A stretch of 33,268 nt of DNA. Origin: a virus. Below, in pieces: positions 1,624 through 33,268 of this stretch; position 1 is the first letter of the stretch; each line of letters starts with the position of its first letter. The DNA is taken from positions 1-33,268 of the IMG/VR virus record IMGVR_UViG_3300031857_018284; one strand, given 5' to 3'. Under the pieces are notes generated by a model that did not search any database, was not told the origin of the DNA, and saw only the letters and a program-made list of their open reading frames with translations. Made by a program: the position numbers and the translations under genes.

Positions 1624-1637
1624 CAACTATTTAGTTG
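1624..1637. repeat. Perfect 6-bp inverted repeat overlapping the -35 box
   Basis: CAACTA-TT-TAGTTG is a perfect dyad in the divergent intergenic region. Its right arm contains the first three bases of the TTGACA box at 1635-1640. It is placed where an operator could control the plus-strand promoter, and it lies downstream of the minus-strand late promoter, within its expected leader. No regulator is known, and a short dyad can arise by chance. Confidence 0.45.
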
Positions 1638-1663
1638 ACAGTATTATTGTTTTTATTTATAAT
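1635..1663 (+). promoter_or_regulatory. Sigma70-type promoter for the glycosyltransferase pair
   Basis: TTGACA at 1635-1640 and TATAAT at 1658-1663 are both perfect consensus boxes, separated by 17 bp. This is the optimal arrangement for unmodified host sigma70 polymerase. The expected start is near 1670, at or within a base or two of the first ATG of the downstream gene, so the transcript may be leaderless. The -10 overlaps the opposite-strand late promoter at 1654-1661. Confidence 0.75.
1654..1661 (-). promoter_or_regulatory. T4-type late promoter for the leftward fibre gene
   Basis: The minus strand reads TATAAATA, the T4 late-promoter octamer, 65 bases upstream of the fibre ATG at 1589. 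It lies in one of the few true gaps and points at a structural gene, which supports it. It shares bases 1658-1661 with the -10 of the rightward promoter. Confidence 0.7.
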
Positions 1664-1669
1664 GGAACT

Positions 1670-3703
1670 ATGATGAAGATTGCTTTTATAGATACACTCG
1701 GCTTGACCTATGACGGATCCACTCTTGAAAAAAGAGGACTTGGAGGATCTGAATCGGCCGTAATTCGCATGTCCGAAGAACTTGCCAAGATAGGCTTTGA
1801 TGTTACCGTTTATAACGACTGCATGTCAGACGACTCTAAACCTGGTATTTACAATGATGTAAAATACTCACCAGTCGAAAACGCCAAAATCCAGTGTTTA
1901 AAATATGATGTGGTTGTTGTTTCTCGTTCAATTAAACCAATTGCAGAAGACTGGGGAACTGTACTAGAAGCAAAACATGTCGCTCTCTGGATGCATGATA
2001 CCTTCTGTGAAGGCGATGATCAGATCGAATATCTAGTTAATGTCGGCAAGCTCCAAGAGATCTTTACACTCTCAGACTGGCATACAGGTTATGTCACTCA
2101 TTGCGATCATGGATTCCGTCGTAACTATGATGTTCTGAAAAATCATATTTTTCTGACACGCAATGGTATAGGTAATATGAATCCAGGTTGGATTGATATT
2201 CGTGACAAGGATCCGAACCTCTTTGTATTCAATGCATCTGTGACCAAGGGAATGGTTCCTCTTGTCAAACAGATCTGGCCAGAGGTGAAGCGCCGTATTC
2301 CAGATGCAAAACTTAAGATCGTCGGTGGCTACTATAAGTTCCGTGAAGCGGCAGAACCAGACCAGCAGCAGAAGGACTGGACTGAACTTATGCTGCATCA
2401 TGGGCACAGCATTGAGTTCACCGGAGTAATTACTCAGCAAGAGATCTCGGATATCCTACGCAAAGCTTCCTACATGATATATCCTGTAGGTTTTCCAGAG
2501 ACGTTTGGCATCTCTACACTTGAAGCACTGGCTCATAATGTGCCACTCATTACATGTCAGTTTGGTGCCCTCGAAGAGACGGCAATCGATCTAGCATCGT
2601 GGAAGATTAAATATCCTGTTGAACCAAACTGGGCAATGCACTGGCTGAACCAAGAACACCAGGTGAATTTATTTGTTGACAAGGTCGTAGAAGCATATAA
2701 TAATCCTTATCTGCGCCAGCAGAAGATGTATGCTTGTAACCAGGTGAAAGATATTTGTACTTGGGATACGGTTGCTCTTCAATGGAAGCAACATCTGTAT
2801 AAGAAACTTGGTGAATACTTACCTGTTGATGAGTATCGTAAGGTTACAAAGATTAACCATAAGGTTCGTAAAGTATTCAACCGTCGGTTCTTGAATGCAG
2901 AGGAACTCCAACCAGTTAAGATCTCAGATGAAAAATCTATAGCTATTATTACACCTGTATATAATGCTGAAGCATACATCGAAAGGTGTATTCGATCTGT
3001 AGCCGCACAAGATTATACTGACTATCACATGTATATTATTGATGATTACTCAACAGATAATACAGTGAAGGTCGCCAAGGAAACCATCAACTCGCTTCCA
3101 CAATGGCAACGTTGGCACTTTACTCTTCTACAAAACGAAGAGAATCTTGGCGCTGTTGCAAATCACTACGATACGATCAAGCAATTGATAACAGAACAGT
3201 ATATCATGCTTCTTGATGGTGATGATTCACTTGTCAACGATCCGACTATCTTTCACATGTACAATAACCTCTATCATGAAGGTGCAGAGTTTACATACGG
3301 ATCATGTTGGTCTATGGCCGATAACATTCCATTGATTGCTCAGGAATATCCACCTGAAATTAAGGCAAACAAATTCTATCGTTCGTACAGATTTAATTGG
3401 AACATGCCGTACACGCATCTGCGTACGTTTAAATCTTCGCTAGTTAAAAACTTGACAAAAGAAGATTTACAGATTGATGGAAAATGGCCAAGAGCAGGTG
3501 GTGATACTTCATTGTTCTATTATCTAATTGAACGAGCAGATCAGAACAAGGTTGTATGCGTAACAGATATTGTAGTTAACTATAATGATTTGAATCCAAT
3601 CAACGACTACAAAGTACATGCAGAAGAACAGAACAAGACCGCTGCAAAAGTATTGAACACTTCGCCATTCTTTCCAGGACAGATCGATCTCAGACCGTTA
3701 TGA
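1670..3703 (+). CDS. Two-domain glycosyltransferase (GT4-like plus GT2-like fusion)
   Basis: Predicted bifunctional sugar transferase of 677 residues. The N-terminal half looks like a GT-B fold, GT4-type enzyme: it starts with a Rossmann-like strand and a GLGGSES loop, carries a GGYYKF segment, and has the EX7E signature in PETFGISTLEALA near residue 275, which usually binds the sugar-nucleotide donor. From about residue 420 a GT2-type GT-A domain begins, with ITPVYNAEAYIERCIRS, the IDDYSTDNT loop and a DGDD metal-binding motif near residue 515. Two transferases in one chain could add consecutive sugars. Donor and acceptor cannot be inferred. ATG at 1670 and 1673 are both possible starts; the conserved N-terminal strand begins at once, so no later start is likely. 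It is on the opposite strand to its neighbours, has its own promoter, and overlaps the next gene by ATGA. Confidence 0.9.
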   Translation: MMKIAFIDTLGLTYDGSTLEKRGLGGSESAVIRMSEELAKIGFDVTVYNDCMSDDSKPGIYNDVKYSPVENAKIQCLKYDVVVVSRSIKPIAEDWGTVLEAKHVALWMHDTFCEGDDQIEYLVNVGKLQEIFTLSDWHTGYVTHCDHGFRRNYDVLKNHIFLTRNGIGNMNPGWIDIRDKDPNLFVFNASVTKGMVPLVKQIWPEVKRRIPDAKLKIVGGYYKFREAAEPDQQQKDWTELMLHHGHSIEFTGVITQQEISDILRKASYMIYPVGFPETFGISTLEALAHNVPLITCQFGALEETAIDLASWKIKYPVEPNWAMHWLNQEHQVNLFVDKVVEAYNNPYLRQQKMYACNQVKDICTWDTVALQWKQHLYKKLGEYLPVDEYRKVTKINHKVRKVFNRRFLNAEELQPVKISDEKSIAIITPVYNAEAYIERCIRSVAAQDYTDYHMYIIDDYSTDNTVKVAKETINSLPQWQRWHFTLLQNEENLGAVANHYDTIKQLITEQYIMLLDGDDSLVNDPTIFHMYNNLYHEGAEFTYGSCWSMADNIPLIAQEYPPEIKANKFYRSYRFNWNMPYTHLRTFKSSLVKNLTKEDLQIDGKWPRAGGDTSLFYYLIERADQNKVVCVTDIVVNYNDLNPINDYKVHAEEQNKTAAKVLNTSPFFPGQIDLRPL

Positions 3704-4299
3704 AAAAAATCTTAATTGCCATACCAACTGCTCGTTATATCGAAGCAGATACATTCAAATCGATCTATGATCTGGAAGTTCCTGAAGGATATGAAACAAC
3801 CTTTCAATACTTCTATGGATACAGAGTAGATCAGGTTCGTAACCTGATTGCCGACTGGGTTGTACGTGGATTTGATTATTTGTTTTCAGTCGATCATGAC
3901 ATTACGTTTCCACCAGATACATTAAAGAAGCTTCTTGCTCACGATAAAGATCTGGTTTCTGGTGTGTATCGCCAGAGACTTGAACCACAGATGCTTGAAA
4001 TCTACGAACCGTTTGGTACACGTATGACAACTGAAGACCTCTATGCAAAGGACTGGAATCTAGTTGGCATTGGTGGTTGTGGCTTTGGCTGTGTGCTTGT
4101 CAAGAAAGAAGTATTAGCAGGTGTAGGCTATCCACAGTTTGAATATCATCCTGCTCTCGATCACAGCAATACGATCAGCGAAGACACTGATTTTTGCAAA
4201 AAGGCAATTACTAAAGGCTTTAGGTTGTGGTGTGACCCATCAATTCGTTGTGGTCACATTGGTTCTACAACTATGGTTGTAGAGATTCCGAAGATTTAG
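3700..4299 (+). CDS. Small GT-A-type glycosyltransferase
   Basis: A 199-residue protein that reads as a compact GT-A fold sugar transferase. It begins with a short strand (KKILIAIPTARY). YRVDQVRNLIADW is followed by FDYLFSVDHDITFPP, where DHD (residues 65-67) is the likely metal-binding DXD motif. GIGGCGFGCVLVKKEV, SEDTDFCKKA and IRCGHIGS follow, a pattern common in small phage-encoded GT2-like proteins. Its ATG overlaps the stop of the larger glycosyltransferase (ATGA), so the two are almost certainly co-translated and act in one pathway. The acceptor is unknown. The last 29 bases run antisense to the 3' end of the converging 67-residue gene. The transferase fold is confident; the exact family is not. 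Confidence 0.8.
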   Translation: MKKILIAIPTARYIEADTFKSIYDLEVPEGYETTFQYFYGYRVDQVRNLIADWVVRGFDYLFSVDHDITFPPDTLKKLLAHDKDLVSGVYRQRLEPQMLEIYEPFGTRMTTEDLYAKDWNLVGIGGCGFGCVLVKKEVLAGVGYPQFEYHPALDHSNTISEDTDFCKKAITKGFRLWCDPSIRCGHIGSTTMVVEIPKI

Positions 4300-4478: not shown

Positions 4479-5900
4479 TTAGAACGTGCCTCCATCAAGT
4501 GTTCCGTAAACAACAGATGTGCCATTTGACTGCAGCACATATCCGTCTGTACCAACTGCAAGGTTAGTCATACCATTTGTTGAGTTACCAACAAGGATGC
4601 CACCGGATGTAAGTGTTGATAGCTTGAGTGTGTTAGCAGAAATATGTACTGGGATAGTACTATTTGCAGTGATGCTAAAGGTATTGCCAAGTGATAAAAG
4701 AGCGCCGGAATAAAGATAAGTTTCCAGTGCTGCAAGACCATAGCCAACACCCGCCGTATTAACAGTTGTTGTTGGTTCAGATTCAAGACCGGTAAAGAGC
4801 TTATAAACACCGTCTGTTGCATCACGAACAAGACCGGTATAACGGGTTCCGCCATTTGTGAACATACCATAGAAACCAACGTCGACGGTATCTGTACCGT
4901 TACCGTTAGCAACCTTAATCATAGGATCTTCAATTGTAAGGTTGTTTGTATCAATCGTGGTAAGCGTACCGGAAACTGTTAGGTTGCCAGAAAGAACAAG
5001 ATCTGAAATCGACAGAGCATTATTAACATGCACACCAGTCGAGTTGACTGTAAGTGTAGAACCAGTTGGAACACTGATCGAGTCAGCAGCAACGCTAATG
5101 CTGTTTGAACCAACAACGTTTAGAGTAACGTCGCCAGTTGTTCCACCACCAGTAAGACCATCACCTGCGGTTACTGCAGTAATATCTGCTACTGTGTTTG
5201 ACCAGTATACAGAAGAACCATTAGAGTGAAGAACCTGTCCAGCCGAGCCTATTCCACCGTTGGCAGAGATGCCTACGCCGCCAGCAAGCGTTATTTGACT
5301 TGCATTGGCAATAAAAGCACCACTGCCGGCAGAAATGACTGCGGCATTGACTGCAAAAGACGCAGAAACGTTTGCAACAGTAAGTGTTGTAGCACTCAGA
5401 CTAGAATTAACTGTAGAGTTACCAACAGAAAATTCATTTGTATGGATTTTGCCACCAACACCTAAACCGCCAGTAATTACAACTGCACCGGTTGTTGTGT
5501 TTGAGCTCGATGTACCAATAGAGAATGTATGTGTATTTGTCCACGCATACACTGCAGCAACGTTAATTGAAACTGCACCCTGATCTAGCCAGTAGGTATT
5601 ACCACCGGAATCTACAGAGAGAAGATATCCAGTACCAGGAGTTGATGTACCATTTGCGGTAATCGACTGTACAGTAAGGTTGGCAGTCTTAACCGAATCA
5701 AGATATCCAGTGCCATTGGCAACAAGAGCTTGATTTGCGGTGAGAACACCAGGATTAAATTTACCACCAATGGTGATAGACGCGCCGTTCGACCCGATAA
5801 AGAGATGATCGCCGTTTGCAGTAAAAGCCAGTTCACCATTAGCTAATGACGGAGGAGTGGCAGTATTTAAAGATCGTTTGATCTGAATTTGGTTAGCCAT
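4479..5900 (-). CDS. Tail fibre-like structural protein
   Basis: A 473-residue beta-rich protein dominated by Gly, Ser, Thr, Asn and Val. ATG at 5900 is preceded by GAGGAAC. The N-terminus (MANQIQIKRS, then SLANGELAF and LFIGSNGA) matches the start of the fibre at 1-1589 and probably attaches it to the baseplate or another fibre. The middle holds a DGLTGGGTTGDVTLNV segment typical of phage fibre stalks. It is followed by a module with LTIEDPMIKVANGNG, DVGFYGMF and GLVRDATDGVYKLFTG, the counterpart of the RDATDG module in the left fibre. The chain ends with LQSNGTSVVYG and LDGGTF, and the neighbouring 86-residue protein ends in IDGGTF. No collagen triplets are present. A GATAAATA motif 77 bases upstream could be a late promoter. 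Confidence 0.8.
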   Translation of the reverse strand: MANQIQIKRSLNTATPPSLANGELAFTANGDHLFIGSNGASITIGGKFNPGVLTANQALVANGTGYLDSVKTANLTVQSITANGTSTPGTGYLLSVDSGGNTYWLDQGAVSINVAAVYAWTNTHTFSIGTSSSNTTTGAVVITGGLGVGGKIHTNEFSVGNSTVNSSLSATTLTVANVSASFAVNAAVISAGSGAFIANASQITLAGGVGISANGGIGSAGQVLHSNGSSVYWSNTVADITAVTAGDGLTGGGTTGDVTLNVVGSNSISVAADSISVPTGSTLTVNSTGVHVNNALSISDLVLSGNLTVSGTLTTIDTNNLTIEDPMIKVANGNGTDTVDVGFYGMFTNGGTRYTGLVRDATDGVYKLFTGLESEPTTTVNTAGVGYGLAALETYLYSGALLSLGNTFSITANSTIPVHISANTLKLSTLTSGGILVGNSTNGMTNLAVGTDGYVLQSNGTSVVYGTLDGGTF

Positions 5901-5918
5901 TATTGTTCCTCAACAAGT

Positions 5919-6179
5919 TTAAAATGTGCCTCCGTCGATATTACCGAGGTCTCCGATTTCGAGCGGTCTTACTTCATATTTATCACTTGTGGAATTATAC
6001 ACTAAAGTAGCACCGGATGTTACATTCACCTCGTCAACATCGCCAAAATCTTCAATGCTACGAATTTCGTTAATTTGATTCTTAAGAGTTACTGGTTTAG
6101 ATGATGCAAGAGAGTCACCTGATGTGGTAACTCTTGCAACCATCTGAGAATTCTGTACAATTCTAGCTTTGAGAGCCAT
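5919..6179 (-). CDS. Small structural protein ending in DGGTF, unknown function
   Basis: An 86-residue protein starting MALKARIVQNSQMVARV, with SIEDFGDVDEVNVTSGATLVYN and the C-terminus GNIDGGTF. GAGG lies 7 bases before ATG at 6179, and the preceding stop at 6182 is two bases away, so it is probably translated with its upstream neighbour. The C-terminal five residues equal those of the 473-residue fibre just downstream, which suggests a shared contact or capping element. I do not recognise a family with certainty; proteins of this kind are found beside fibre genes in marine T4-like phages. A small virion or fibre accessory protein is the likely role. Confidence 0.7.
   Translation of the reverse strand: MALKARIVQNSQMVARVTTSGDSLASSKPVTLKNQINEIRSIEDFGDVDEVNVTSGATLVYNSTSDKYEVRPLEIGDLGNIDGGTF
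5977..5984 (-). promoter_or_regulatory. Candidate late promoter inside the 86-residue gene
   Basis: The minus strand reads GATAAATA, 77 bases upstream of the fibre ATG at 5900. It fits the NATAAATA form reported for marine T4-like phages, but ATAAATA is expected several times by chance in AT-rich DNA of this length. Confidence 0.3.
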
Positions 6180-8388: not shown

Positions 8389-10704
8389 TTACTTAATTAG
8401 ATGAGCTATAACTTTAACCGCGGAATTTGCAACGGTTTGTTGAAGATATAAATTCACATTGTTATCTAAAGTACCAGTATTTGCTGTAAACGTTCCAAGA
8501 GGAGATGCAGCGCCATTTGAAGCAACTGTACCATAAACTGTTACAAACGCATCGGTTGTACCATTGTGAGCAAGTACAAGTTCAGAAAGCTGTGTGTTAC
8601 TACCTTTCTTTACTTGAACTTCAAACTTGGCCGATGAATATGTTGCTTTAGGGAATGTGTAGATTAGCACAGGTCCAATTACGTTTCCAATATCACCATT
8701 TGCAGATACATCAACTACATAATCTGTTTTGAATGTAGTAGTTCCACCAATTGTAACAGTGTTTGATAGTGTTGTCGCGCCAAGAACACCAAGGGTTCCA
8801 TCAGTTTCAATTGCAGTGGATGTAATGAATGTATTAACACTGCCGGTACCTACTGTAATTCTTGTTAATGTAAGATTAACATTGGCACCAACATTCATTG
8901 CAACTGATGCATTTGCTGTCGTAGTATTCATGCCACCAGAAAGAGTACTTAATCCAGCTACACCCAGTGTATTTGATAGTGTAGCAGAATTAGTTACAGC
9001 AATTGTGTTTCCAAAGCTGGCTGCGCCGGTAACCGTAATCGTATTTGAGAACGTAGCGGTATTTGTTACACCAATAGTGTTTGAGAATGTAGCTGCACCA
9101 GTTACACTCAACGTATTTGATAGTGTTGTAGTATTAGCAACCGATAGAGTACCATCAGTTTCAATACCAGTAGCTGTAATGAACGTATTCTCAGAACTAG
9201 TACCGACTGTAATTCTTGTATTTGAAAGATTTACGTTAGCACCAACATTGATTCCAACCGAAGCATTTGCTGTTGTAGTGTTTAGGTTACCAGAAAGAGT
9301 GGTTAGACCGGTTACACCAAGCGTGTTAGATAATGCAGTAGCACCAAAAACGGTAAGTGTGCCGTCTGTCTCGATCGCAGTGGCTGTAATGAATGTATTA
9401 ACACTATTATTGCCAACATTAAATCTATCTAATGTAAGATTAACATTGGCGCCAACATTTACAGCAACAGAAGCATTTGCCGTTGTGGTATTCAATGCAG
9501 CATTTAGTGATGCAAGGCCGGCAACAGTTAGTGTATTTGATAGTGTTGTAGTATTAGTAACCGCCAATGTATTAGATAATGTAGCAGCATCAGCAACTGT
9601 TAATGTACCATCGGTTTCGATTGCAGTGGCTGTAATGAATGTATTAACACTACCGGTACCTACCGTAATTCTTGTATTTGAAAGATTTACGTTAGCGCCG
9701 ACATTCATCGAAACGTTTGCATTCACTGTTGTTGTATTTACATTGCCAGAAGCATTTGCTAGACCAACTACTGTTAGTGTGTTGGATAATGTGGCATTGC
9801 CAGTAACAGCAATTGTGTTTGAGAATGTAGCATTACCTGTGATAGCAACGGCATTTGAGAATGTAGCATTACCTGTCACAGCAATAGTGTTTGACAAAGT
9901 AGCATTGCCAGTTATGGCTAGAGTGTTCGATAATGTAACGTTGCCTGTTACAGCTAGTGTATTGGATAATGTAGCATTACCAGTTACAACAATCGTATTT
10001 GCAAAGTTAGCATTTGATGTTACATTAGCAGCACCAGAAATTGTCAGGTAGTTGGTTGGTGTAATTACTAGATTAGCAATACCAGACCAAGAACCGTTAC
10101 CAAACTTACTGTCGAATGAACTGTTGGCAACAACTATCGTTGTAGCATTTGCAAAGACATTTGCACCAATGGCTACCATAGTAGTATTGGCAACAAACAG
10201 ACCAGTACTAAAAGCGTTCGCAGTCATGTTTGCTGTGGTTGTAGCATCTGCAACTTGAATGCGTGTTGGTGTAATATTCGTGTTGACAGTACTGCTAGAT
10301 TGTGTTATAATCAGACTACTGTTTACAAAGGAATTAGCAGATCCTAAGCCAAGGTAAACACCAACTGGATTCAGGTAGCTGTTCGAGGTGCTGTTTCCGG
10401 CAAGAACACGAATACCAGCGTCTGCTGCAACATAAGCTGTAGCATTTGATGTAATGACTAGATTTGCAGAGTTGCCAGTTTGAACGTTACCACCACGAAG
10501 AGCAGTTCCAACTGCAATAGTGTTTGCACCAAACGTACCCCAAAGCTGAGCGGTACGAGCAATAGTATTATTGCCGGTGTTAGCAACAGTAGTATTTGCA
10601 GTAATAATTTCAGTCGAAAAAGCGTTCAGCAGCTCGTTAGTCTGGAGCAACCAAACTTCAAAGCTATCAGTAATGATATCAACGTTAGCTACTTGTCTTG
10701 ACAT
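8389..10704 (-). CDS. Long Asn/Thr/Ser-rich repetitive fibre protein
   Basis: A 771-residue protein. The N-terminal 35 residues ([33 protein letters not shown]) are non-repetitive and probably attach it to the baseplate. The body is built from short beta repeats: about six 12-residue units of the [12 protein letters not shown] type (9771-10002), and four larger modules around NVGANVNL and [15 protein letters not shown] (near 9600-9735, 9357-9485, 9148-9275 and 8785-8920). These suggest a beta-helix or stacked-strand shaft. The C-terminal part from about 8720 is non-repetitive ([38 protein letters not shown]) and resembles a globular beta domain. AGGAA precedes ATG at 10704, which shares a base with the previous stop. 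The unusually high Asn, Thr and Ser content offers many possible glycan sites, although none is proven. Confidence 0.8.
9771..10002 (-). repeat. 36-bp tandem repeats (12-residue fibre repeat)
   Basis: About six units encode [12 protein letters not shown]-like blocks with conservative changes (TL/TI, AV/AI, NA/NV, LS/FS). Bases differ between units more than in the collagen repeats, so these are older. They are in frame and without spacers, so they are protein repeats and not a CRISPR array. Confidence 0.85.
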
Positions 10705-13052: not shown

Positions 13053-16000
13053 TTAGCGAAGACGCTCATTCACGTTATCCCAATCAAAAATACGAACGTT
13101 ATTATTATCAATAGCGTCATGAATTGATTGTGAACTAAATCCAGCAGGAATTGCTGATGTAGTTGCTCTATCTGATGTAGCAGCCTGTGTAGCAGTTTGT
13201 GATGTATTCAGTGTGATTGGTTGATCGAATCCAAATGGTAGGCCTGTGTAGTATTTAACACCAATAGATCCTGTTGTCTTCGAGTTACCATCGTACGACT
13301 GAACTGTAAACACCTTCACACCAGCTTTCGATGCTGCAAGCTTATTCTGTTGCTCAAGATCAGTAGTAGCTTCATTGATTCCTGCATCATAGTAGAAATC
13401 AAAGTTTAGAGTACCATTCATGTCTGCCAGAAGACCAGTTGTATTTGTGGTCGACGTTCTTGATTGTGCGCACTTCGATGTCTGATCTTCGCCTTCAAAC
13501 ATAAACTTGTGATATGTATTTGGCTTCAGACCAGTAATAGAAATTGAGAATTTCTGTGCATCAGAGATAAACTCACCAATTGCAACCGAGCCAAATATAT
13601 CATTCATATAGTTTGTTGACAGAGTGATTGTGAATTCAGCTGGTGAAATTGTATGAACAACACCAGTGTAATCAAAGTTCGCAGGATTTGGAACGATACG
13701 TGTTTCAGTGGTTACCACATCCGACGGATAATAAAGCTTAAATCCATAAGTTCCAGATTTTCCTTGTCCGCCATGGTTCTTACCCTTGTAAACACGAAGC
13801 TTGTAGTAAATACCATCGTTTGGATTGTGCGTCCAAAGAAGCTTAAACTTATCTTCAACGAAACCACCAACTGGTCCATAAGACTTACGTGTTATAGAAC
13901 CTGGGTTTTCGATCTTTTTGCCATCGTTTAGAATGCTAAGACCCTTGGTAGAAATATCAGCATTTGTAATTGTTTCAGCAGCTGCTGATGTATATGTTGT
14001 AACATAAGTACCACCAGAAGTTGTTGACTGGAATACTTCAAGAGCTATGTTATTATCACGGCTATTAATATAGAATTCAACAGGTCCTGTTAGACTGCTG
14101 AATGTATAGAAGAATTCTTCATATACCGAGCCGTTGTCGCTGCGAGCTGTACTACGCTGAGACTGAATAGCAACTTCAGTTTTCTGAGTAACTACTAGAA
14201 CTTCAACTGGTCCAGATGTAATCACAGCACCGTCGGTAGCATCATTTTGAGCTACGATTGTGAATTCATTATATGGAAGAGTTACAATACCAGTTGAATT
14301 GTCTTCTGGTTTGAATTCAAGATTCAGTTCGGTTAACTTAGGACCAAGTTGATCTTCCTTAATTGTACCATAGTACTCAGGATTTCCAAGATCAGAATAG
14401 TTATAATCTGTAAATGGATCTACAAAGAAACCAAAGCGGAAGCGATCGTTTAGTGAGTCAAGTGACGAAGGAATATATCTTGCTTTTGCAAGAGCTTCAG
14501 CCAGCGTAAATGATACGTAGTATTCAAGAGTTTTGATACGATTCTCAAGAGAAGCGATATCAGTCATCTTGTATCCCTTGACTTGGATACGTGAACGATC
14601 AGTTGCACTAATAAGTTGAGTTACGGTATAGTTCTTAACTCTTCTTCCAAATGATTCGTTAGCAACTTTAGTATCAATAATCTTAGCCATGTCTGCAGAT
14701 TTTGATTCTGGCAGAGAAGGATAAGGTGGAATCTTAAGAATTTGTAGTGTAATGCTGTTTTGTGGCTCTGGTGGAATTTCATCCTGTGCGCCATTCTTAC
14801 CAGCACGAACAACAAAGTCTCCGTTGCTATCTACAACAACACGATCTGATCTGCCTAGACAATATACAATGTTAGCAGTTAGATCTGTATCTGGCACAGG
14901 GAAATATTTTTCACCTGCTATGAATCGATTTGAAGAACTTGGTTCAGACGGATTAATAATAGATAGAGCATTTGCTCCAGCTGGCACATTAGAAATGTCT
15001 GTAACCAGTTTAATTGTATTTGCAGAGCGTGGACGGAAGTCATACTGATCACGCAGATCATAGTACTTGCCGCTGGTTCCCAGAACTTCTGGGATTTCCA
15101 TTGTGTGCACACTTTCAGAAGCAGATAGCGCTGCAAAGTCTAATGAGTCATCGACTGTATAAGAACTGATAGTTTTAACACCTGCCTCACCGCCGGTAAA
15201 CACGTCATACTGTACAAGTAGAATATCATTCGATACAAGTTCAGCTGCACGAGGTTTTCTATACAGATAAGAAGTATCTAGATAGTCTTCCTTTTGATTA
15301 ATATCAATGTAGAAGTCGTTCGTAACATCAGATACACCATAGGTATTTCCAGTAAAGAATACTGGTTGGCCTGTGAGTGTGTGGTTTTCTGATGTTGTAG
15401 TTGCTCCTAGTTGGATATTTGCTCCACCACGAGCAGAAGCAAGAGCCATACCGCTGGTGTTAGCGTATACGGCATAGTATGTTCCAGCATCTGTAAGGTT
15501 GGTAACCGTTGTTGTACTATCAGCGTAGACTACCGAATCACCATTTGCAAATGGGTTGTTGGATATCTGAATAAACGCAGTTTGAGTACCAGAGTTTATG
15601 ATGCCAGTATTAGCATTGAAGTTCAGAGCTCTTGATTGGCCATTTGCTACATATACTTTTCTTAGACGGAAAGCATCAGAAACACCAAGTGCCCAAGGGC
15701 CACGAGTACCACCAGCATTATTTGAACAAACAGCACGTGTATAAATTGAGCGAGTTACGCTTTTTACTGCTGATGCAATATTATTTCTAGTTGCATTATA
15801 GACAACCATCATGTCAGCAGATGTAGAACTTCCGGTACTCGCATTAGCAATGGTATTTGCTAGAGCAATAACCATAGTGCCTGGCGATGTAACAGTTGCT
15901 GTGCGAGTTGTTTTGCTAGTTAGCGAAATTGGAACATTGGCTGGATAGTAAAGCTTTACTGAACCGCCAGAGTATGTTTGACCAGGACCCGAAGTAAGAA

Positions 16001-20784: not shown

Positions 20785-23700
20785 TTATTCCTCGATCGTC
20801 TTTGTCAAGTAATGGCCGGATGTATCTACATCAGGTGTTGTATTAGCTATTATATTTATAGGAGTTCCACCGGCAGATGTTGCAAGTTTAACAGTAGATC
20901 CGGATGTTTGTACAATATAATAGTTGGTATTATTGGCTAATGGCGAAACAGCAACATTTGCGGTTGCGGTTGTGTATCTTACAATATCACCATTTGCAAA
21001 TGGATTTGATGTAATGTCCGTATCGATTGTTTTATTTGCCGTGCTTACATCACCGGCTGAGTTGAACTTCACTTCTTGACCAGTTGCAATTTCAGAAAGT
21101 TCAACTGTAATAGAATCTTCCTCGACAACCAGTGCCGAACCAAAGAACTTAGTACCAGCAGTATGCATAACCTTCTTGAACATGTCTGCATAACGATCAA
21201 CAGAGATCTTCGACAGAATCTCGTACGAGTATTCTTGATAGTAGTCACCGTCATGAATGTACATGTCTTCAGATAGGAAGCCCTTTGAACTTCTATAATA
21301 TCCTTCACCAATGCCGTGTCCATCAACAACAATTTTAATAGACCCTGAACGCGCGCCGTCTGCTGAAGTGTATTGTAGAACATCACTATTCGAATAACCA
21401 ACACCAGAGTCTACAACCTGTAGAGATGTAATTTGGCCATTTGCTGTAATAACGTTAGCTTCAATCTGAGCATTTAAACCAATCGGATAGATAAGGTCTA
21501 AATCTTCAGTAACTCCTGTGATTTGAGCTTCTGCACCAGAAAATTCACCGAGCAGAAGTGAAACACTTGGAGGCGAACCCGGTCTAAATGTATTTTCAAA
21601 ACTAAGTCTCTTTACGCGAACTGCAGTGGTATTGGCTGACTTGACAATACCCTTTGCAGTAGATGTAATTTGATACAAGCTTGCAGTAGATACATTTGCA
21701 CTAACATACGGATTTGAATATGAAAGCAGTGTATTTGATGATGTTACATTGATTGTGGATGTATTACCAGATACACGAACATAATCGCCAGTTGTATTTG
21801 AGAAGATTGATTGTACACTGGCATTCATTACTGGAGTTGTGCTTTGATACACGCGATCACCAGGTAGGAATCCAGGAATTGTAGAGAATGTATGTGATTC
21901 CAGTGAGGCCGCAGCTGCATTAATTGCTTTTACTGTTCCACCGCGTGCATCCGACAGTTTGAATCCAACCGTGTTTGCATTGACAATATAGTATGCAGTA
22001 TTATTTGCCAGACCATCGATAACCGTGTTTGCCGCCGGCGTACGATATATTACTCTTTGATTGTTTGCAAACTCATTTGCATACTTGACAATGTTATGTC
22101 CATTTGCAGCTGGATTATAATATCTCAGGAAGTGACCGCCGCCACCTGGATCCAAAGCAGTAATATTTACGTTCGCACCGCCAGCAGTCTCAGACAGAGC
22201 AAGACCAGTTGTGTTTGCGTATCTTACATAATACAGTGCGTTGTTTGTTAGACCGGTCACAGCAGTATTGCCGGCACCGGTAATGTATCTTACCTGTTGA
22301 CCATTTGCAAACAGTGTATTTGCAGTTGCAATAGTAATAAAATCATTGCTATTTTGAACGTTTGTGTTTGAGTTGAATGTCGCAACATTCGAAGCCTGAG
22401 TCAGGTTAATATTTGCACCACCCTGACTAGTCGCTAGCGTAATGCCAGACGAGTTAGACATTGCAACATAATAGAATGCATTGTTAGCAAGAGAAGATAA
22501 TGCCGTGTTTCCATTATTAGTATAATAGCGAACATATGTATTTACTGGATATATACCATTTGCATTTGTAATAGAAATAAAATCTGTATTGGAATTTACA
22601 TCATCTGTTGTATTGAATGTAGAAGAATTTGAAACATACAGAATGAAATCATTTCCACTCTGGATTTCGTCGTCAACATTTACTGTTACAAGCTTTTCAT
22701 CAAACGTATCACTATAAGCACCATTATCTACTTTTAGATCGTAGTACCTTAAATCTGCAAGAGTTTGATTTACTCTTTCTCCAACTGCATATACACCAGT
22801 TGCACCGGAAATATTAATAATAAAATCTCTACGACCAAATGCTGAAATATATGGTTGATAAGCAAGAACATATGGATCGACGTTGTAACCAGCTCCAGGG
22901 TCGATGCCTGAAAGTGCTCCAATAGAACCGAGTGTGAATTTATCAAACGTTAGACATGTAAAGATCTTATTCTTAGAATCACCTTGAGGATTCTTTGGAA
23001 ATCCGAATGCAGCACCAGCAATTGGTAAAGCAGAATATACTTGATTTGCTTGATTAAGTGTAGTGTAAACTGCTACAGCATCAATAGTAGTATTTGTGGA
23101 TGTTGCACCGTACTTAATAATATTACTATTTGCAAATGTGCTTACATCTGCAGTTCCGCCAGTAACAGAAAAGTAATTGTGGTTATCTTTAGTTCTTAAT
23201 ACGCCTGTTGATTTTTCAAAAACAGTTCCGTGTGCTAACTTATATAAGTAATGTCCCGCTTCATCCACTTTGTTATTAGCAAATGTAGAGAAGTTTGTGG
23301 AATTAATTTGATCAAACTTACGATATGGATGAGAAAGAATTACGTCTGTTGCCGTAGTAGCTGCAACATAGTAGTAATCACCATTATATAAACCATTTAG
23401 TGCAGTATTTCCAGCAGCAACTTGATATCGTACAATATCGCCAATGTTGAATAGTGTGCTAGCACTTGGAAGAGTAATTTTTCCAGTTGTAGCATTTACA
23501 GAACTGCTTGCATTAAAAGCAATTTTGTTTACTTCTTGATAAACACGATCACCAACAGCAAATGCAGAACTTGATCCGACTGTTAGAGTAACACGGTCGT
23601 AATCAAGTGTTCCTACACCGTTTGCCGAAATTAGATCTGTGCCAATGAAGATGTCTTCTGTATCACCAAGAGTTCCAACATTAAACTGTGCACCGGAACC

Positions 23701-25590
23701 AAAACTTGTTGTAAGTGGAATCGCTGTGGTATTGGTTGTTTGTGTAAAGAGTCTTGCATGCTCAGAAGCAATATAGTCACCACCGGCATTTGCTACCGTG
23801 TATGTAACAACAGTAGCACGACCTGTGTTTGCACCAGTATAGAATGTATCAGTTTCAGTAAAGTAACCTTTGATTGGAACAAAGGTAAGATTACCAGATG
23901 AAGTACCAGCATCGTGAGAGACAGTAAGAAGAAGACCCTCAGCGATCTTCTTTCCGGCACTGTCATAGCGATAGATTCTATTGCTATGTAAAAGTTCACT
24001 ATTATTCGCTGTAGAATATTTTAGTGTACTAATGAACTTTCTAATATCATATACACCAACAGTAAGACTTACTGCAGTCACATTAGCAGAGATAGAAGAA
24101 TCCGTAGATACTTCTAATCTTTCTCCAATTGGAAATGCGCCGCGTGTATTATTGATTACAACGGTATTACCAGTACCGTCTGCAGTAATACTCTGAATAG
24201 TTCCTCTGCCTACAATAGCAGAAGTATTTTTATATAGAACAGATTGATTTACAGCAAGCGTACCATTTTGATTTCTTAGAGTTAATGTGTACACTTGTGG
24301 TATACCCATTACCTTACCACCAATTGTTCTATCTTCAACGGTGTTGGCATGGAATGAAATGACATTGCCAGGTGTAAAGTATGTTGCTGTATTTGTAAAC
24401 ACGCCATTGACGTGTGAAATCATGATCGTGCCATTTGAACCGGTCTGATCAATATCGACAATCTTACCAGCCCCGGACACCTGACCATTTGATGCATAAC
24501 GAGATAATGTTTGACCAATCGTTAGATTTGCAGTCGCACTCGTAAATGTGGCATTCACAATTGGTTCAACTGCCTGTTCGAACAGACGGAAGTATTGGTC
24601 GCTGTTTGTATTTGCTACAACGCTATCAAGTGTGATTACTTTTTCAGAAATAATTGATTCTGAATTGAGTGTGTATCCATATCCACCATCGATAAAGATA
24701 AAGTCTACGATACCAGTTGCTTCACTGACAGACTCAACTCGAGCTAAACCACCGAGACCGTTTGAAGTTCCGGTGAATGTAACAATATCACCAACTCTAA
24801 AATCGCGGCTACGATCTTGTAGAATTACACGCTTAACAGAACCAATGAGCTTAGCTCTTTTTGTTCTGTCATAAACTGGATTGTTATTGACATTCAGACC
24901 AAGCAATTCACCATTGGTAAACTCGCCTTGGCGTCCAGAGATATAAAGAATATCTACGTATCCAACCGAGGTACGACGACGAATGAACTTTTCTACGAAT
25001 GCTTTGGCACCAGAAATAGCACCGATGATTTGCTTACCAACATAGTCAACGTTAAAGCGCTTGTGTGTAACTTCTAGATATTCTGGTCTTTCCCAGATAC
25101 CATCAGAAACACGAAGAATGTTATCGGCTGGATAACGTACTTCAGCAGCTGTACCATATACCAATTTGAAGAACAAGTCAATAGAACGCTCAGTACCCTT
25201 TGAACGATACAGGTCGAGCGAGTTCTTAATTAGAAGTTCTTTGTTTGTGGCAGTATCAAACTGAATGTTTTTGAGATACTTTTCTTTGAACTGTAGAATA
25301 AACTCATCTACAGTCGTATCAATATCACGATAGTCTGGAAGCTTGCGAGCTTGGTAGAGAGCAGCAGGACCTATTGCTTTATTTGAGCTATTAGATGTAT
25401 AACTAATGTTTGCAGATGAATCAATATAAGGGGTTACAATATCACCGTTGGCCGCCGTATAAGAACCGCTATTCTCCATCCATTCAAAATATGCTTTGGC
25501 AAAAGCAATGAACTGTGGACCCTCTTCCTGATAGAAAGAAGGAAACTGGTTCTCAACAAATGGAGAAATTATTGCTTCTATTTTCTTCAT
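20785..25590 (-). CDS. 7: Baseplate wedge protein gp7 (expanded)
   Basis: A 1601-residue protein. The N-terminal 180 residues match marine T4-like gp7: ISPFVENQFPSFYQEEGPQF, FAKAYFEWMENSG, RDIDTTVDEFILQFKEKYLK, then LYRSKGTERSIDLFFKLVYG and ISDGIWERPEYLEV-like SDGIWERPEYLEVTH. gp7 nucleates the wedge and contacts gp6, gp8 and gp10. T4 gp7 is about 1032 residues. The extra sequence here is a chain of beta modules: five copies of a FANGD/Y-Y-V/GGANI module (nt 20850-23453) and several modules ending in a TG-F or RG-F turn (about 24050-24560). A gp7-like segment, EGYYRSSKGFLSEDMYIHDG with YSYEILSKISVDRYADMFKK, sits near the C-terminus (about 21170-21320). The start at 25590 shares a base with the gp6 stop. 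Confidence 0.85.
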   Translation of the reverse strand: MKKIEAIISPFVENQFPSFYQEEGPQFIAFAKAYFEWMENSGSYTAANGDIVTPYIDSSANISYTSNSSNKAIGPAALYQARKLPDYRDIDTTVDEFILQFKEKYLKNIQFDTATNKELLIKNSLDLYRSKGTERSIDLFFKLVYGTAAEVRYPADNILRVSDGIWERPEYLEVTHKRFNVDYVGKQIIGAISGAKAFVEKFIRRRTSVGYVDILYISGRQGEFTNGELLGLNVNNNPVYDRTKRAKLIGSVKRVILQDRSRDFRVGDIVTFTGTSNGLGGLARVESVSEATGIVDFIFIDGGYGYTLNSESIISEKVITLDSVVANTNSDQYFRLFEQAVEPIVNATFTSATANLTIGQTLSRYASNGQVSGAGKIVDIDQTGSNGTIMISHVNGVFTNTATYFTPGNVISFHANTVEDRTIGGKVMGIPQVYTLTLRNQNGTLAVNQSVLYKNTSAIVGRGTIQSITADGTGNTVVINNTRGAFPIGERLEVSTDSSISANVTAVSLTVGVYDIRKFISTLKYSTANNSELLHSNRIYRYDSAGKKIAEGLLLTVSHDAGTSSGNLTFVPIKGYFTETDTFYTGANTGRATVVTYTVANAGGDYIASEHARLFTQTTNTTAIPLTTSFGSGAQFNVGTLGDTEDIFIGTDLISANGVGTLDYDRVTLTVGSSSAFAVGDRVYQEVNKIAFNASSSVNATTGKITLPSASTLFNIGDIVRYQVAAGNTALNGLYNGDYYYVAATTATDVILSHPYRKFDQINSTNFSTFANNKVDEAGHYLYKLAHGTVFEKSTGVLRTKDNHNYFSVTGGTADVSTFANSNIIKYGATSTNTTIDAVAVYTTLNQANQVYSALPIAGAAFGFPKNPQGDSKNKIFTCLTFDKFTLGSIGALSGIDPGAGYNVDPYVLAYQPYISAFGRRDFIINISGATGVYAVGERVNQTLADLRYYDLKVDNGAYSDTFDEKLVTVNVDDEIQSGNDFILYVSNSSTFNTTDDVNSNTDFISITNANGIYPVNTYVRYYTNNGNTALSSLANNAFYYVAMSNSSGITLATSQGGANINLTQASNVATFNSNTNVQNSNDFITIATANTLFANGQQVRYITGAGNTAVTGLTNNALYYVRYANTTGLALSETAGGANVNITALDPGGGGHFLRYYNPAANGHNIVKYANEFANNQRVIYRTPAANTVIDGLANNTAYYIVNANTVGFKLSDARGGTVKAINAAAASLESHTFSTIPGFLPGDRVYQSTTPVMNASVQSIFSNTTGDYVRVSGNTSTINVTSSNTLLSYSNPYVSANVSTASLYQITSTAKGIVKSANTTAVRVKRLSFENTFRPGSPPSVSLLLGEFSGAEAQITGVTEDLDLIYPIGLNAQIEANVITANGQITSLQVVDSGVGYSNSDVLQYTSADGARSGSIKIVVDGHGIGEGYYRSSKGFLSEDMYIHDGDYYQEYSYEILSKISVDRYADMFKKVMHTAGTKFFGSALVVEEDSITVELSEIATGQEVKFNSAGDVSTANKTIDTDITSNPFANGDIVRYTTATANVAVSPLANNTNYYIVQTSGSTVKLATSAGGTPINIIANTTPDVDTSGHYLTKTIEE
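20850..23453 (-). repeat. Five copies of a beta module within gp7
   Basis: Protein-level repeats at about 23316-23453, 22402-22552, 22162-22313, 21922-22076 and 20850-21003. The pattern is F-[AN/NIG]-D/Q-x-VRY-x4-GNTA-x2-L-NN-x-YYV-x5-G-x2-LA-x3-GGA-x-I. DNA identity is low, so the duplication is old or the modules were acquired separately. A sixth copy is in the DUF4815-type gene at 15408-15552. Confidence 0.85.
20853..20860 (-). promoter_or_regulatory. Candidate late promoter for gp8, inside gp7
   Basis: The minus strand reads TATAAATA, the exact T4 late octamer, 69 bases upstream of the gp8 ATG at 20784. An internal promoter would allow more gp8 than gp7. The location in coding sequence lowers confidence. 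Confidence 0.4.
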
Positions 25591-33185: not shown

Positions 33186-33268
33186 TTATTTATAAATAGC
33201 TCTATGGCGTACAAAGGCTTTTTCAAACCACTTAACCCTTCGAAATACAGAGGTGATCCCACGAACAT
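33186..33268 (-). CDS. Possible 3' end of an upstream gene (partial)
   Basis: In this frame the minus strand reads VRGITSVFRRVKWFEK then AFVRHRAIYK and a TAA at 33188-33186 that is embedded in the late promoter (TAT AAA TAA). Basic and aromatic composition is plausible for a protein end, and T4-like late promoters often overlap a stop in this way. Only 27 codons are visible, so the identity is open and the frame may be non-coding. Confidence 0.4.
   Translation of the reverse strand, partial: VRGITSVFRRVKWFEKAFVRHRAIYK
33187..33194 (-). promoter_or_regulatory. Late promoter for gp48 and the hub genes
   Basis: The minus strand reads TATAAATA, 30 bases upstream of the gp48 ATG. The 12 bases 33187-33198 (TATTTATAAATA) form a perfect palindrome, so the octamer also occurs on the plus strand at 33191-33198, facing the opposite way. 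Confidence 0.65.

Follow-up and report, generated by a model that had tools for sequence, protein, structure and literature searches.

How can two divergent gene groups be transcribed when only 80 bp lie between them? This question is raised by a 33,268-base IMG/VR virus fragment (the whole stretch analysed here, hereafter the window) from a T4-like bacteriophage known from environmental DNA alone. Its minus strand carries T4-type baseplate genes whose best matches (36-38%) are in T4-type phages of Sinorhizobium and Caulobacter. No annotated phage was seen among its close relatives, and the glycosyltransferase discussed below has only distant matches among phage records (16 records, none covering 80%). 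The 80-bp gap parts a minus-strand collagen-repeat tail fibre gene (3-1589, start codon at 1589; 529 aa of its 5' part, running off the window; Pfam PF01391 Collagen and PHROG tail fibre families) from a two-gene glycosyltransferase operon on the plus strand. The first operon gene (1670-3703) encodes a fused glycosyltransferase of 677 aa (group 1 plus family 2; Pfam PF00535, PF13692 and PF00534), and the second (3700-4299) a glycosyltransferase-like product with a weak match to phrog_12406, a match to phrog_1574 (unknown function) and no match in a Pfam search. The plus strand of the window has no open reading frame of at least 80 aa upstream of the operon; hence, the operon promoter should lie in or near the gap. 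A terminator search of positions 1500-1750 found none, and Rfam gave no match across 1400-1900 at E values up to 1.

The gap holds two candidate promoters that share bases. On the plus strand, a sigma70-type promoter for the operon (1635-1663) has a -35 TTGACA at 1635-1640 and a -10 TATAAT at 1658-1663, separated by 17 nt. On the minus strand, the T4-type late box TATAAATA occupies 1654-1661 upstream of the fibre gene, and the two boxes have four bases in common (1658-1661). A preliminary description of this DNA had reported both boxes, their shared bases and a dyad, CAACTATTTAGTTG at 1624-1637, overlapping the -35. We confirmed each of these: the plus-strand hexamers match the consensus at all 12 positions, and the last three bases of the dyad are the first three of the -35. 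The dyad is the core of an inverted repeat (1622-1639) that also falls in the predicted fibre mRNA leader, where it reads GUCAACU-AAAU-AGUUGGC on the minus strand. Also in that leader, a second palindrome, AGATATATATCT (1605-1616), which the preliminary description does not mention, adjoins the fibre ribosome-binding site. PMC1524935 places the late box at -13 to -6 relative to the start. By this rule, the predicted minus-strand start is an A at 1648. If the -10 T is put at -7, plus-strand transcription is predicted to start at 1670, on the first base of the glycosyltransferase ATG, and the glycosyltransferase mRNA is therefore predicted to be leaderless, a feature absent from the preliminary description. 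Predicted from box positions in this way, the divergent starts are 22 bp apart.

We compared the frequency of these motifs in the window with chance. Perfect matches to TTGACA-N15-19-TATAAT occur twice, against 0.05 expected. The late box TATAAATA is unremarkable in number (4 copies in the window versus 2.35 expected; 18 of 100 shuffles reach 4), and copies with one mismatch are at chance (63 versus 61.5). The same is true of TATTTATAAT, the ten-base union of the late box and the rest of the -10 (1 versus 0.31 expected; 25 of 100 shuffles reach 1). Since late-box counts in the window alone are unremarkable, we used conservation instead, and the case for a candidate promoter pair is built on position and conservation. 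The second TTGACA-17-TATAAT (10283-10311) is antisense inside a minus-strand gene (8389-10704); it is identical in two related contigs (G002, 52308-52336; G011, 45774-45802), has one hexamer mismatch in a third (G008, 10249-10277), and could reflect either an antisense promoter or coding constraint. A minus-strand TATAAATA at 20853-20860, in the last part of gene 20785-25590 and some 69 nt ahead of where the next gene begins (20784), is a possible internal late promoter.

Relatives of the glycosyltransferase are encoded by 290 stretches, the best 80 of which we kept. Leaving out two whose contigs begin inside the gene (L039 and L041), 78 of these and the window gave 79 loci, all with upstream DNA, which reduce to 41 distinct 78-nt haplotypes. 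For a test independent of the boxes, we used 40 rows of the glycosyltransferase tree, consisting of the window's clade (21) and the rest (19), and ranked the words of the window's gap by their presence upstream of the glycosyltransferase. The late-box word TATTTATA ranks first of all 73 eight-base words: it is found in 21 of 21 clade rows and 17 of 19 others (38/40), where the median word is found in 4 and 0. Among 71 ten-base words, TATTTATAAT ranks second (19 of 21 rows in the clade, 6 of 19 outside it), with GATATATATC, a part of the AGATATATATCT palindrome, just ahead of it (20 of 21 and 7 of 19). Comparison of the gap in related phages had been set beforehand as a check on the preliminary description, and it finds the boxes kept. 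The AGATATATATCT palindrome is present, as a single copy each, in five of eight contigs; in some distant relatives it is swapped for other palindromes with an ATAT centre, CGATATATATCG, GTGTATATACAC and GGAATTATATAATTCC.

Divergence around the gap gives a second measure. All 80 positions of the gap are identical in the window and two relatives (L011 and L012), whereas the four-fold sites of their glycosyltransferase genes differ by 0.385-0.391. The adjacent 80-bp coding windows in these relatives carry 3-6 differences; thus, the gap is a local minimum of divergence, for which recombination of the gap is a possible alternative explanation. Across 15 haplotypes, invariant columns make up 8/8 of the late box, 2/2 of the extra -10 bases, 0/13 of the spacer and 0/6 of the stretch between the palindromes, counts that are partly circular since these haplotypes were picked for having both exact boxes. 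For that reason, we put weight on the word test, whose rows were chosen by the glycosyltransferase tree.

Is the minus-strand box a member of a promoter class? We surveyed the window along with seven related contigs (eight in total, some nearly identical to one another), with genes called by a simple ATG-ORF rule. Among 72 copies of TATAAATA, 49 are intergenic and 51 have an ATG on the same strand no more than 120 nt downstream. The corresponding numbers for a permuted control, TATTAATA, a palindrome counted on both strands, are 4/78 and 5/78. Other controls are intergenic in 9/39 (TAAATATA), 22/55 (AATAAATA), 6/29 (TATATAAA), 1/29 (TATAAATT) and 2/8 (TATATATA) copies, and ATAAATAT, which partly contains the motif, in 15/45. 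The late sigma factor gp55 is encoded by 2 of 30 related virus contigs (G011 and G013) and its partner gp33 by 5 of 30 (G002, G008, G013, G023 and G024), all of the contigs being fragments; G013 carries gp55, gp33 and the overlapping promoter module together. Both proteins are encoded by the reference phages Cr30 and phiM12. The box precedes a virion gene, with a predicted 59-nt leader to the fibre ATG, it belongs to a class concentrated upstream of genes in this lineage, and late machinery is encoded by relatives.

On the plus strand, hexamers spaced as for sigma70 (16-18 nt) match the consensus at 9-12 of 12 positions in all 15 overlapping haplotypes with a predicted leaderless mRNA, at spacings of 16-17 nt. 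Seven of these 15 have TGTACA or TGTACT as the -35, only 4 or 3 matches of 6. In three loci (L025, L032 and L040), the best sigma70-like score does not stand out from mononucleotide shuffles (0.125-0.16). Moreover, when up to two mismatches are allowed, six contigs contain 180 sigma70-like sites, 159 of them inside genes, so such a match alone means little; sites of this kind also precede other genes of the relatives, for example at 9696-9735 and 15716-15950 of G002, in front of two genes that have no assigned function. The -10 ends 6-9 nt before the ATG in 15 of the 17 haplotypes whose predicted starts are 22 bp apart. By a simple motif list applied to the last 22 nt, a ribosome-binding motif precedes the gene in none of the 15 leaderless haplotypes, versus 22 of the other 26. 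Many outer relatives begin Met-Lys-Ile, like the window's clade, and others Met-Lys-Leu or Met-Arg-Leu; this common N-terminal start supports the choice of start codon. Judged from sequence comparison, both promoters are probably real.

The preliminary description went further and proposed that the overlap makes a self-contained switch, with the glycosyltransferases expressed early and the fibre late. The comparison backs a sigma70-type promoter for the operon and a T4-type late promoter for the fibre within one gap, but it does not support the overlap as the switch. We scored the relation of the late box to the best sigma70-like site of each haplotype, a site that is weak in some. A 4-bp overlap is found in 22 of 41 haplotypes, 17 with predicted starts 22 bp apart and five in another register, with starts 16 bp apart; two more overlap by 2 bp. 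The late box lies downstream of the -10 in nine haplotypes and upstream of the -35 in four, and four have no exact late box. An overlap that made the switch would be expected wherever the gene pair is conserved, and 24 of 41 haplotypes have one; the 13 haplotypes with the late box apart from the best sigma70-like site indicate that the pair persists without overlap. On the glycosyltransferase tree, the leaderless overlap requires four changes. One locus (L045) has an enzyme nearly that of L033 with a different promoter type, and another (L050) combines an outer enzyme with the promoter type of the window; from these mismatches, the gap and the glycosyltransferase gene appear to recombine. It seems that both promoters are wanted and that their exact overlap is optional.

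The explanation we favour, and hold to be likely as a whole, is that the gap is a compact bidirectional promoter for two different sigma factors. A host-type sigma70 polymerase would initiate on the plus strand near 1670, at the A of the first glycosyltransferase ATG, and its mRNA would be leaderless or nearly so. The late sigma factor gp55, with gp33 and the gp45 clamp, would direct minus-strand transcription from about 1648; the resulting fibre mRNA would have a leader of 59 nt in which the dyad hairpin and a second small hairpin could form. Given the size of RNA polymerase, starts 22 bp apart are expected to exclude one another, and there would be no room for two polymerases at once. Timing is more likely to be set by genome-wide sigma exchange, as gp55 replaces sigma70, with the overlap adding local exclusion at most, together with compactness.

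A close relative of this explanation is that compactness is all there is: both promoters would be real and merged because the gap is short, sigma exchange would set all timing, and the overlap would have no regulatory role. We consider the chances of this about even. It agrees with the 13 haplotypes in which the late box lies downstream or upstream of the best sigma70-like site, and with the late/late overlapping pairs found between gp48 and gp4 here and between genes 26 and 51 in T4, where an early/late switch is not expected. Against it, the 22-bp register in 17 of 41 haplotypes and the 16-bp register in five are above obvious drift, although shared ancestry weakens this point.

The dyad adds a further element to the gap. 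We took 58 of the 79 loci, of which three (L046, L055 and L056) have no centre; the other 55 reduce to 21 distinct 24-mers. With the centre picked per locus for best pairing, which somewhat favours structure, pairing at the seven stem positions holds in 95.2% of cells versus 76.9% in shuffles. Six of the seven pairs are changed on both sides, in 23 cells versus 9.0 in shuffles, so that the arms described previously also covary; further pair types are not exceptional (9 versus 7.5; 46 of 500 shuffles). Pairing falls to 18-41% when the partner is slid out of place. Swaps between CAAC...GTTG and ACAC...GTGT are the main way in which the symmetry is preserved. They require five changes on the glycosyltransferase tree and include three independent pairs on well-supported branches; the gap and the gene appear to recombine, however. 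By this covariation, the dyad is judged to be real and its symmetry itself to be kept.

In the fibre mRNA, nine unpaired bases would be followed by the dyad hairpin, a 7-bp stem capped by a tetraloop. Pairs are formed in 140 of 147 cells in the fibre sense and 133 of 147 in the opposite sense, and wobble pairs number 12 versus 5 cells, the cells not being independent. These counts lean slightly towards a hairpin in the fibre leader over one in the other sense. We discarded folding energy as proof of such a hairpin: for 36 distinct leaders from 73 of 74 loci (L047, which has no start, was left out), it hardly beats shuffles (mean z -0.55 in the fibre sense and -0.41 in the opposite sense).

A dyad on a -35 could instead be a DNA operator, with a regulator bound at about -40 controlling the sigma70 promoter and setting glycosyltransferase timing in place of promoter competition. 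Symmetry kept through changes of the arms is consistent with this, and in L073, L075, L076 and L077, four loci with a displaced late box, the dyad stays on the -35. Nevertheless, we find an operator doubtful. The 14-bp dyad core is found once in each of seven of the eight contigs, always in this gap, and is absent from G024; the looser 10-12-bp forms give two further matches, both inside genes. A regulon-wide operator and repressor is rejected for now because of this confinement. The centre of the dyad is also asymmetric, with T on the left in 20 of 21 and any of the four bases on the right, and the excess of wobble pairs in the fibre sense, subject to their non-independence, points away from DNA.

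The most elaborate reading gives some 40 bp three roles at once: a leaderless early sigma70 promoter, a gp55 fibre promoter, and a late-RNA hairpin one arm of which is the opposite promoter's -35. A late complex occupying the site would then shut the glycosyltransferase promoter in cis, and sigma exchange would be sensed locally. We think this unlikely. Less probable still is that the sigma70 -10 is a by-product, with the late box alone selected, AT often preceding TATAAATA and TTGACA supplied by the dyad. The bases before intergenic copies of TATAAATA are indeed AT-rich (T in 32/49 at -1 and A in 16/49 at -2), far more rows retain the late box than the full TATTTATAAT (38 versus 25 of 40), and the -35 lies partly in the dyad; in the haplotypes with TGTACA, the dyad is changed and the -35 match is lower. 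However, outer relatives with a moved late box have a separate promoter (TTGACT or TGTACA, 17 nt, and a -10 of TATACT, TATTCT, TAGACT or TATATT), and the operon would otherwise lack an evident promoter. Least probable of all is a plain bidirectional sigma70 promoter, with host polymerase using TATAAT on the plus strand and TATAAA on the minus strand independently of gp55: in bacteria, near-symmetric -10 elements commonly give divergent starts 7-25 bp apart (PMC10268837 and PMC12825309), but the minus-strand box is the full 8-bp TATAAATA, kept in nearly all rows, belonging to a class found upstream of genes and placed before a virion gene.

If the favoured explanation holds, the gap is a natural, sequence-defined site at which two sigma factors facing opposite ways would be in competition, and a single small piece of DNA could report on sigma exchange in an infecting phage. 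It also suggests that this lineage has promoters, for sigma70 as well as for gp55, whose predicted start falls on the start codon, which makes a testable prediction about leaderless translation in T4-type phages. Even if the overlap reflects compaction only, the gap is a clean example of promoter merging. We saw no divergent overlapping sigma70/gp55 pair described in the open-access literature searched.

Several known systems resemble parts of this arrangement. The late promoter of T4, served by gp55, gp33 and gp45, has the same TATAAATA box, and homologues of gp55 and gp33 are present in contigs related to the window; here, the promoter is predicted from sequence. Bacterial bidirectional promoters, in which start spacings of 18, 10 and 23 bp are common according to PMC12825309 and PMC10268837, share a -10 and are alike in having divergent starts, here predicted to be 22 bp apart, such that one binding event is expected to exclude the other. 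They are served by one holoenzyme through the symmetry of the -10, whereas two different sigma factors, acting at different times, are predicted here. RB49 is reported to have overlapping early and late promoters, and the same has been proposed for the cyanomyoviruses S-PM2 and Syn9; PMC2984593 gives these promoters as the basis of middle expression. These are likewise T4-type phages in which sigma70-like early and TATAAATA-like late promoters occur together, but as described there both promoters serve the same middle genes, whereas those in the window face opposite directions and serve two gene groups. A related contig (G011, locus L125) has an early/late overlap in tandem, resembling the one in RB49: TTGACA-16-TATAAT at 6033-6060, upstream of a minus-strand gene (5493-6008), has a TATAAATA late box in its spacer on the same strand.

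A similar geometry is found within T4 itself, where genes 26 and 51 are separated by a divergent pair of late boxes, TATTTATAAATA, which may well be known already. The same sequence is found in the window at 33187-33198, as opposite-strand late boxes sharing four bases between gp48 (tail tube cap, minus strand) and gp4 (head closure, plus strand). The gp4 ATG at 33204 lies exactly at the predicted late start, which predicts a leaderless late mRNA. At the gp48/gp4 boundary the pair recurs in G002, G011 and G024 and, one base shorter, in G008, and in G023 it separates other genes; the TATTTATAAATA 12-mer is present in five of nine virus contigs searched and absent from Cr30 and phiM12. As in the 80-bp gap, the boxes between T4 genes 26 and 51 overlap by four bases on opposite strands, and the -13 to -6 rule puts their starts 23 bp apart; unlike that pair, in which both boxes are late, one of the two promoters in the gap is of the sigma70 type.
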